Positions 7,010 to 36,075 of a DNA stretch of 36,075 bases are shown one piece after another; the first letter of the stretch is position 1, and each line of letters opens with the position of its first letter. The position numbers were made by a program, and so were the translations under genes. The notes below the pieces were generated by a model. That model saw nothing but the letters and a program-made list of their open reading frames with translations. It ran no database searches and was not told where the DNA came from. Source of the stretch: Phycisphaerales bacterium (GTDB lineage: Bacteria; Planctomycetota; Phycisphaerae; Sedimentisphaerales; Anaerobacaceae); NCBI GenBank assembly GCA_030602885.1, contig JAUVYV010000033.1, positions 1-36,075 on the forward strand, in the 5' to 3' direction.

Positions 7010-7675
7010 ATGTTCACAGGACTTATCCAACAGGTGTGCACCGTCAAATCGCTTACAAAAAGCGCCGCAGCCGCTGTGCTCACTGTGGACCTGAGCCGCC
7101 TCGCCGAGCAAACCAAAATCGGCGACAGCATCGCAATAAACGGCGTTTGCCTTACCGTCGCAAAACTTTTAGCCCCACCTTTAGGTGGGGTCCACCACCA
7201 TTTGGCCGTCTTCGACATCAGCCCCGAAACCCTCGAAATTTCCAACCTCGCAAAACTCACCGCCAGCTCAAAGGTCAACGTCGAGCTCGCCCTCAAACTC
7301 GGCGACCCGCTCGGCGGACACCTCGTCCAGGGCCACATCGACGGTACCGCAAAAATAAAACAAATCAAAAAACAAGGCGAATTCACCGAAATTACTTTTG
7401 CCGCTGCTCCGGAACTGCTCGCTCAGATGATACCAAAGGGCGCCGTCGCCGTTGACGGAATATCACTCACAATCGCCGCCCTCGACAAAGACAGTTTCAC
7501 AATCGCCCTGATACCACAGACGCTAAAAGAGACCACACTCGGCTCGGCAAAAATAACCGATACCGTCAACATCGAAATCGATATAATAACAAAGACGGTT
7601 AAAAAACACCTTGAAAACATCCTGCCAAAGAACGACAAATTAACCGTAGAAAAACTCAGGCAGCTCGGATTCTGA
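7010..7675 (+). CDS. ribE: Riboflavin synthase alpha subunit
   Basis: Converts two 6,7-dimethyl-8-ribityllumazine molecules into riboflavin plus a pyrimidine. The 221-aa product shows both lumazine-binding repeats: MFTGLIQQV, GDSIAINGVCLTV and ISPETLEISNL in the first; GHIDGTAKI, GAVAVDGISLTI, LIPQTLKETTLG in the second. I start at the ATG at 7010 (canonical MFTGLI), not the TTG two codons earlier. After CLTVAKL the protein has about 8 residues more than usual (APPLGGVHHH). This insertion is encoded by a REP-like palindrome at 7168-7199 that is repeated at 33 kb. The insertion is in frame, so the enzyme may still work. Confidence 0.95.
   Translation: MFTGLIQQVCTVKSLTKSAAAAVLTVDLSRLAEQTKIGDSIAINGVCLTVAKLLAPPLGGVHHHLAVFDISPETLEISNLAKLTASSKVNVELALKLGDPLGGHLVQGHIDGTAKIKQIKKQGEFTEITFAAAPELLAQMIPKGAVAVDGISLTIAALDKDSFTIALIPQTLKETTLGSAKITDTVNIEIDIITKTVKKHLENILPKNDKLTVEKLRQLGF
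7168..7199. repeat. REP-like palindrome inside ribE
   Basis: These 32 bases are identical to 33242-33273. The stem is CCCCACC/GGTGGGG around TTTA, with head TTTAG and tail TCCACCACC. It adds about 8 residues to RibE without breaking the frame. Confidence 0.9.
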
Positions 7676-18645: not shown

Positions 18646-19098
18646 TCACCCGTCCCCGTGCCTCTCCACATACTCAACCCGCGCCACCAACGCCTCCTCA
18701 TCAAAACAATACCGCTTATCATAACCTCTGGCCCACAACCTTCCACTGAAACCCTCCTTTTTCAGCGCCATCCGCGCTGTGTTCTTACAACGGGCAACGA
18801 CCTCGCTTACAGCTATCGGCGCATAACCAAGCACCACGTGCACGTGATCACGATCAACTGCAATAGTATAAACCATGTGCCCAAGTCGCTCAGCTTCCTC
18901 ACGAATTGCTTTTTTTACAATCTCCCGCTGCTTATCGTTGAGTTCAATCTTTTTCTGTTTCAAGCAATTTATGCTCTTGTTATATAGGCCCTCGTTCATC
19001 CCGGATACTCTGCCGTGCTCTACATAACCTCGCTCATCACCCGGCAGCCACGTTCCGTAAGTACTACACGTCAACATATACCCGATCGTTTTCCCCAT
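18646..19098 (-). CDS. REP-associated tyrosine transposase (Y1 family)
   Basis: A 150-aa protein of the IS200/RAYT single-strand transposase family. It has the entry motif YMLTCSTYGTWLPGDERG, the HUH-type metal histidines in VDRDHVHVVLGY, and a candidate nucleophilic tyrosine in RVEYVERH near the C-terminus. Such proteins cut and join single-stranded DNA at REP palindromes and are usually single-copy domesticated genes. Two REP-like palindromes stand immediately upstream (19129-19235), which is the arrangement of a REPtron. It is convergent with rluD, 11 bases apart. No terminal repeats of a full IS are visible. Confidence 0.85.
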   Translation of the reverse strand: MGKTIGYMLTCSTYGTWLPGDERGYVEHGRVSGMNEGLYNKSINCLKQKKIELNDKQREIVKKAIREEAERLGHMVYTIAVDRDHVHVVLGYAPIAVSEVVARCKNTARMALKKEGFSGRLWARGYDKRYCFDEEALVARVEYVERHGDG

Positions 19099-19128: not shown

Positions 19129-19173
19129 TATTTAGCCTCGGCCTTTGGCCGAGGGTACGCACGACCACGCTGG
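19129..19173. repeat. REP-like palindrome A near the RAYT gene
   Basis: TATTTAGCC head and an 8-bp perfect stem CCTCGGCC (19136-19143) / GGCCGAGG (19147-19154) with loop TTT, then GGTACGCACGACCACGCTGG. It aligns over its length with the copy 62 bases downstream. Confidence 0.8.
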
Positions 19174-19190: not shown

Positions 19191-19235
19191 TATTTAGCCG
19201 CGGCCTCCGGCCGCGGGCACCTCCGACCGCGCTGC
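19191..19235. repeat. REP-like palindrome B near the RAYT gene
   Basis: Same head, TATTTAGCC, with an 8-bp stem CCGCGGCC (19198-19205) / GGCCGCGG (19209-19216). Compared with copy A, the third stem pair has changed from T-A to G-C on both sides. This is a compensatory change, which argues that the hairpin itself is maintained. Confidence 0.8.
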
Positions 19236-33191: not shown

Positions 33192-33241
33192 CACCTTTTA
33201 CAAAAATTCTCCTCCTCGAAGTTTCCCCGCCCTCCACCTCG

Positions 33242-33388
33242 TTTAGCCCCACCTTTAGGTGGGGTCCACCACCTCGTTTAGGTGGGATCCACCACCTCGT
33301 TTAGGTGGGGTCCACCAGCTCGGTTAGCCCCACCTTTAGGTGGGGTCTACCACCTTGTTTAGCCCCACCTTTAGGTGGGGTCTACCAT
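33242..33388. repeat. Cluster of five REP-like elements
   Basis: Three full copies of TTTAGCCCCACCTTTAGGTG-type palindromes (33242-33273, 33324-33354, 33358-33388) and two shortened ones (33277-33296, 33300-33319) that lack the first stem arm stand head to tail, joined by CTCG or CTTG. The first copy is identical to the element inside ribE. Others differ by TCCACC/TCTACC changes in the tail. Confidence 0.85.
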
Positions 33389-33390
33389 AT

Positions 33391-33416
33391 CAACCCCCGG
33401 TTTCACCGGTGGGTTG
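33391..33416. repeat. Palindrome with different stem
   Basis: CAACCC-CCGG / CCGG-T-GGGTTG around TTTCA, followed by CACA. It abuts the REP cluster. The GGGTTGCACA tail recurs at 33611-33620. Confidence 0.6.
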
Positions 33417-33529
33417 CACACTGGAGTTTACCCTCGCTTGTCCTCGGGAAGTCGCTACTTTGGTCCTGCAGCAGAGGAACTGCTTGCTCACTTGACTCAA
33501 CAACAGAGGGCGAGGAATACTTACCCAAA

Positions 33530-33619
33530 TGAGGCCGAAGGCCTCAAATGTTTAGCCCTCGAACCCCGAAGCCGAAGGCCCGGCGCTCCGTTTGACGGGG
33601 GCGTTCGGGGGTTGCACAC
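33530..33619. repeat. Two further hairpins
   Basis: TGAGGCC-GAA-GGCCTCA (33530-33546) is perfect. It is followed by TTTAGCC at 33551 and a long-range stem CGAACCCCGAA (33560-33570) with TTCGGGGGTTG (33604-33614), ending in CACAC. The TTTAGCC head again matches the REP-like family. Confidence 0.55.
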
Positions 33620-35838: not shown

Positions 35839-35886
35839 TATCCTAAACTCGCTCGTCTCGGCGAAGGCCGAAGCCGTAGCCGGGGA
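35839..35886 (+). repeat. Leader repeat, right copy
   Basis: Identical to 159-206. Here it is the 5' leader behind a consensus promoter and ends in GGGGAGGG, a good ribosome binding site 7 bases before the ATG at 35897. Confidence 0.8.
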
Positions 35887-35896
35887 GGGTTCAACA

Positions 35897-36075
35897 ATGA
35901 CCGCCCATTTACAAGATGTTATCTTTTGCCTCTTAGCCCTTGAACTTTTTCAAAAATTCCGTGTCAATTTATCCCTACCGAAGGGGGATCAGTGTGAATC
36001 AGTGTCTAAAAACAAACCGCCTATATTGCCCAACTTAACTTGCTGGCAATTTACAACCTTTTTATGCAAAACAAA
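35897..36075 (+). CDS. Doubtful small ORF, cut by window end
   Basis: An open frame of 59 codons, with promoter, leader and ribosome binding site, running off the window. The first part (MTAHLQDVIFCLLALELFQK) differs entirely from the left-hand ORF; the last part, NKPPILPNLTCWQFTTFLCK, is the same and in the same frame. The middle includes ATCAGTGTGAATCAGTGTC-type repeat sequence. It has no recognised domain. The expression signals make it a better candidate than the left copy, but it may be a noncoding transcript. Confidence 0.3.
   Translation, partial: MTAHLQDVIFCLLALELFQKFRVNLSLPKGDQCESVSKNKPPILPNLTCWQFTTFLCKT
36011..36075. repeat. 65-bp direct repeat, right copy
   Basis: Identical to 345-409. 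The repeat probably continues beyond the window, as the left copy does into the CAAACCC tract. Confidence 0.85.

Follow-up and report, generated by a model that had tools for sequence, protein, structure and literature searches.

A REP-like palindrome read in frame within the riboflavin synthase gene of an uncultured planctomycete-related bacterium

How does a repeated palindrome come to be translated as part of a core enzyme? Mobile palindromes lying in frame within essential enzymes are known chiefly from Rickettsia and a few REP-rich genomes, and a further case is raised by ribE, encoding the riboflavin synthase alpha chain, in a stretch of DNA of 36,075 nucleotides (the window) from a fragmented draft genome of 3.2 Mb in 128 contigs. 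The gene occupies positions 7010-7675 of the + strand, stop codon included, and its open reading frame of about 221-223 amino acids encodes a complete two-domain lumazine-binding protein (Pfam Lum_binding, E = 4.3e-44). The 32 bases at 7168-7199, TTTAGCCCCACCTTTAGGTGGGGTCCACCACC, occur identically at 33242-33273, while the expected recurrence of a random 32-mer in this genome is about 3e-13. This identity had been pointed out in an earlier note on the same DNA and was confirmed, as was the in-frame position; inspection of the ORF showed that the reading frame stays open across the element. The ribE copy (+ strand) is composed of a TTTAG tag (7168-7172), a perfect GC-rich stem CCCCACC/GGTGGGG and a tail TCCACCACC, and is read in the phase T-TTA-GCC, giving LAPPLGGVHH.

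Comparison with relatives defines what was gained. RibE proteins of the family read CLTVAKL-xGx-LAxFD where the window RibE reads CLTVAKL-LAPPLGGVHHH-LAVFD. The earlier note had proposed about eight added residues, APPLGGVHHH; the net gain is indeed 8 residues (24 nt), but the stretch encoded by the REP is LAPPLGGVHHH, 11 residues long. The gain is 8 rather than 11 because about three native loop residues appear to be gone, 33 nt standing in place of about 9 native nt in the family alignment. Since the net gain is 24 nt and the element is 32 nt long, the event was no clean simple insertion. A chimeric assembly was considered and, from the assembled sequence, judged unlikely, as both flanks belong to ribE.

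The loop length was identical in 80 of the 82 parsable RibE motifs of family and order, the exceptions being the window (+8) and one further genome, G028 (+1); two loci outside the 82 parsed motifs are uninserted in the family alignment. In one genome (G031) ribE is split across the ends of two contigs (L120, L121) near the loop region, and its loop length is normal. Alignment with relatives, the check to which the earlier note had submitted its claim, thus reveals an empty site in 80 of 82 motifs, and the 8 added residues are not ancestral. In solved riboflavin synthases, too, a gap stands opposite the insert. The reading of the segment as an ancestral RibE feature with only secondary similarity to a repeat was therefore rejected on the empty sites in relatives, and we give it practically no credence.

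An AlphaFold2 model of the window RibE, for which 17 homologues taken from public contigs were supplied, predicts a strand at residues 46-54, a coil at 55-64 containing the insert and a strand at 65-70, with a mean pLDDT of 88 and a confident barrel. According to the model, the insert is located at a beta-turn of the N-terminal lumazine-binding barrel, and the loop position proposed earlier is borne out as a coil between two strands. Folding of the ribE transcript indicates that a hairpin can form at the REP (z = -2.1), which might speak for an mRNA hairpin or an HHH peptide adopted for ribE regulation or metal binding. However, any perfect palindrome folds in this way, no Rfam family was matched by the REP in an Rfam search, and the RibE of G028 encodes a different peptide at this loop; an adopted function is thus very improbable.

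The second copy of the element was described in the earlier note as an intergenic element at 33242-33273. The copy is identical, but it belongs, as the first unit, to an intergenic array (33231-33390, + strand) of the same REP and is no single element. The array is built of 35-nt units TTTAGCCCCACCTTTAGGTGGGGTCCACCACCTCG and of 23-nt units, and the latter look, from their sequence, like deletions between two TTTAG copies of one unit. The stem core CCACCTTTAGGTGG is present in 10 copies in the window, where shuffled sequences would lead one to expect 0.1. A search of the complete genome (3.2 Mb) located the 20-base core in ribE, in the array and at a single site on contig C54, and nowhere else; the ribE REP family itself is low-copy, being represented by ribE, one array and one REPtron. 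Directly after the array, at 33391-33600, remnants of other REP-like palindromes are seen (e.g., CCCCCGGTTTCACCGGTGGG), some of them without the TTTAG head.

On contig C54, the ribE-type REP occurs, as copies or variants, to either side of a small gene located upstream of prfB. The product of this gene contains an HUH motif and matches Pfam Y1_Tnp (PF01797) at the gathering cutoff; against NCBIfam REP_Tyr_transpos (NF047646) it gave E = 1.5e-8 and 34.7 bits, which is under the curated cutoff of 80. The window genome contains five full-length RAYT-like paralogues and three fragments, and the motifs [ND]H[VI]H, W[TSA] and YVxxH are conserved in all five. Private palindromes lie near the genes on C7, C19, C69 and C125, varying from gene to gene, and the head TTTAGCC is common to these and to the C54 palindromes. 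One RAYT-like HUH (Y1) transposase gene with a different REP family lies in the window itself (18658-19098, - strand; DHVH, WARGYD, YVERH; 52% identity to the C54 protein, E = 3e-43), near the REPs TTTAGCCTCGGCCTTTGGCCGAGG (19131-19154, + strand) and TTTAGCCGCGGCCTCCGGCCGCGG (19193-19216, + strand). RAYT-like homologues were found in 25 of 41 genomes of family and order.

REPs in general combine a short conserved tag with a GC-rich stem-loop of about 20-40 bp and are present in many copies, mostly intergenic and often dimeric. About 40 distinct REPs, with a TTTAG tag, a stem of 7-9 bp and a loop of 2-4 nt, were found in the window genome, and CTAAATATTTAG dimers occur in relatives. A REP profile (R1) built from five REPs, biased to 24-nt elements, scored 150 of 791 candidates, and a pattern search was added. 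The pattern TTTAGCCCC-N8-14-GGGG, overlapping matches counted, gave 30 matches in the window genome and 63 in G028, where the reversed control pattern gave zero in either genome; of 10 further members of the family, 9 contain it as well. From the tag and stem pattern and from the RAYT-like genes flanked by REPs, it follows that the ribE 32-mer is a REP and that its likely mobilizer is a RAYT. The REP-like character claimed earlier is thus supported by the tag, the palindrome and the RAYT-type gene beside the sole copy elsewhere.

Taken together, we consider it highly probable that a RAYT-type HUH transposase copied a non-autonomous REP into ribE, at a loop which tolerated it with the frame left open. 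In this mechanism, a RAYT/TnpA-REP-type HUH transposase acting on single-stranded DNA would have copied the TTTAG-tagged hairpin, for which intragenic REPs provide the precedent (PMC3733652) and known TnpA-REP cleavage the chemistry (PMC8266576); mobility of the REP by RAYT is deduced from their association. The gene on C54 between copies of the ribE-type REP is the probable cognate transposase gene. A tight beta-turn of the N-terminal lumazine-binding barrel would have been swapped for a longer loop with a net gain of 24 nt, native loop residues presumably being deleted. The open frame and a loop tolerant of extra residues would account for the persistence of the insert, while out-of-frame or harmful insertions would have been lost; the window RibE presumably still works and the insert is likely neutral. 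The process is probably general in the family, with several TTTAG-tagged REP families occasionally turning into translated parts of core enzymes.

A second event at the same loop is found in Planctomycetes bacterium RBG_13_46_10 (G028), which belongs to the same family as the window genome and to another genus; the label planctomycete-related is based on this placement. Its RibE loop TATTTAGCCCCGCAATTTATTGCGGGG is a different REP, exactly at the window loop, with 19 genomic copies (<=3 mismatches); in this ribE 27 nt stand in place of 24 native nt. The two genomes stand apart in a RibE tree with the loops masked, a single-gene tree with weak support. Because the REP families differ, the net lengths differ and the genomes are ungrouped in the tree, we take the two insertions as independent, as judged from the sequences. 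A scan of 85,000 species found TTTAGCC in the RibE loop at 26 places, and only in RBG_13_46_10 was it accompanied by a palindrome; nearly all of the others are native sequence, e.g., EFSR and ALAD. A second extra segment, roughly 8-9 residues in the DCKIGSTGSLQ region, precedes GDSIA in the RBG_13_46_10 RibE (L196:1766-2431) and is not a REP.

The apparent loss of native bases at both RibE sites (33 nt for about 9; 27 for 24) would fit another route, in which a template switch or gene conversion with a REP copy as donor lengthened the loop and replaced native bases without RAYT activity, and the right arm of the G028 element, ATTGCGGGGTTTGA, is similar to the native CTTGCCGGTTTTGA of a relative. 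Nevertheless, RAYT-like genes with cognate REPs on their flanks are present and the inserts in AroA and CarB (see below) look added, at roughly the length of a REP or REPIN, so we regard this route as rather unlikely.

Further REPs are translated in other enzymes. The AroA of the window genome contains a single in-frame REP (YLAPSFTGGF), absent from other family members, and a member of another genus (G009) contains a REP dimer in the same AroA loop. The two genomes are apart in the AroA tree, whose internal support is weak, and the data would fit two separate insertions as well as a single one followed by several losses. In the AroA of G019 (L248), another loop holds a different palindromic insert (RPPGCLAQPSRGC), which lacks the TTTAG tag. 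G028 has in-frame REPs in three further proteins: CarB contains a dimer that is not present in E. coli CarB, TilS contains a degenerate copy, and a Cas9-like protein (L227, G028:C40:1-9300) contains a composite insert, RLDSRFRGNDTPATGAGAKQ, in which a GGATTCCCGC...GCGGGAATGACA repeat is combined with an antisense REP. Repeats of the GGATTCCCGC...GCGGGAATGACA type were also seen in the genome of L043 and L047, sometimes near REPs. Three more cases come from G009, with dimers in a NIF3 protein and in a ParB-domain protein and a single REP in an E2 acyltransferase. No coding REP was present among 35 REPs in samples of two other genomes (G015, G005).

Cases at the same loop in different genera may serve as natural replicates for the question of whether insertion is targeted or merely tolerated, and they bear on whether REPs provide raw material for protein loops. 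One reading takes the two loops, in RibE and in AroA, for genuine insertion hotspots, where the local sequence or single-strand exposure draws RAYT. It is favored by different REPs at one RibE loop in two genera, by the AroA loop shared by two genera, by the separation of the carriers in both single-gene trees and by the low chance of one same-loop coincidence, roughly 3e-4 for a random gene and site with assumed gene numbers. Moreover, CT, the cleavage site of the known TnpA-REP (PMC8266576), immediately precedes TTTAG in the window ribE. However, no CT directly precedes the tag in the G028 ribE copy or in the AroA copies, the single-gene trees are weakly supported, and permissive loops alone would yield the same recurrence, since every insertion elsewhere is lost; targeting is therefore unlikely. 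Recurrence at the RibE loop, and possibly at the AroA loop, could mean either targeting or few permissive loops. A broader proposition, that different TTTAG-REP families repeatedly land at the first-barrel turn of RibE and a C-terminal loop of AroA and become coding there in a preferred phase, LAPxFxGG, with REP mobility as a standing source of new loops, is offered tentatively and is doubtful at present.

The preserved frame was taken in the earlier note as a sign of selection for a tolerated insertion. This part holds as selection after random insertion; the frame does not come from the length of the repeat. As 32 nt do not make a whole number of codons and native bases were apparently lost at both RibE sites, frame keeping is an outcome and no built-in property of the repeat. 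In the window genome only 2 of the 40 REPs are inside convincing genes, far under the coding density, where the fractions were counted in REP-centred stretches and the density of 85% is an assumption. REPs are thus mostly purged from genes with the survivors in frame, and since most REPs are intergenic, random insertion followed by selection accounts best for the frame. The search for the ribE REP family in other CDSs found no second coding copy in the window genome. The further suggestion, of spread as a coding-compatible repeat, is consequently not supported in that form, REPs being strongly depleted in genes and this family having no second coding copy. It receives weak support from a phase bias: 8 of 9 sense-oriented coding REPs are read in the phase T-TTA-GCC (LAP), the ParB-domain case being FSP (two-sided p = 0.04, part of which may be ascertainment). 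The third reading phase of the REP contains a TAG stop.

Intragenic in-frame REPs are already known from Rickettsia, Opitutus and Xanthomonas. RAYT-associated GTAG REPs have been described, with GTAG/CGTC REPs in frame in conserved genes of Opitutus terrae, in Xanthomonas recB and in others, and two Xanthomonas species have different REPs at about one recB site (PMC3733652). The present elements resemble these in their short tag with a palindrome and in occurring as in-frame single copies and dimers. They differ in the tag, TTTAG (TTAG next to the stem), and in their targets, which include ribE, aroA, carB, nif3 and an E2 gene. All REP families found carry TTAG/TTTAG in place of the terminal GTAG of that superfamily, for which degeneracy is described at the second or third position, not at the first; nor is the terminal CGTC of CGTC-REPs and Rickettsia palindromic elements present. 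The latter (RPE-1 to RPE-7), as far as Ogata 2000 is cited in PMC3767692, are in-frame elements of 100-150 bp in exposed protein parts, at the same place in orthologues, and RPE sequences of R. conorii carry a CGTC tag (PMC3733652). In-frame palindromic insertion in conserved proteins is common to both, whereas the elements here are about 23-54 nt long and lie beside RAYT-like genes.

The HUH and W motifs, the private palindromes around each transposase gene and the REPIN dimers correspond to REPtrons (PMC2817692, PMC6006769). The tyrosine motif YVxxH matches no Y motif in the subclass table of PMC6006769, the foot of the REPs corresponds to neither GT[AG]G nor CnGA, and cleavage of the REPs by their transposases is presumed. 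TnpAY1 class 3, known from Planctomycetes, has a Y----Q motif and a CnGA foot (PMC6006769), where YVxxH and TTTAG are found instead. What is new here is a TTAG-tagged REP group, RAYT-like proteins with an unlisted tyrosine motif, the empty sites and the same-loop recurrence, all in an uncultured planctomycete-related family.

Other repeats were also observed in the window. An A/C-rich tandem repeat of short period (AAACAAACCC-like) lies at 492-591. Direct repeats near both contig ends, 159-206 with 35839-35886 (48 identical bases) and 345-409 with 36011-36075 (65), have nearly equal spacing, a repeated element being the probable cause of the break in the assembly at these ends.
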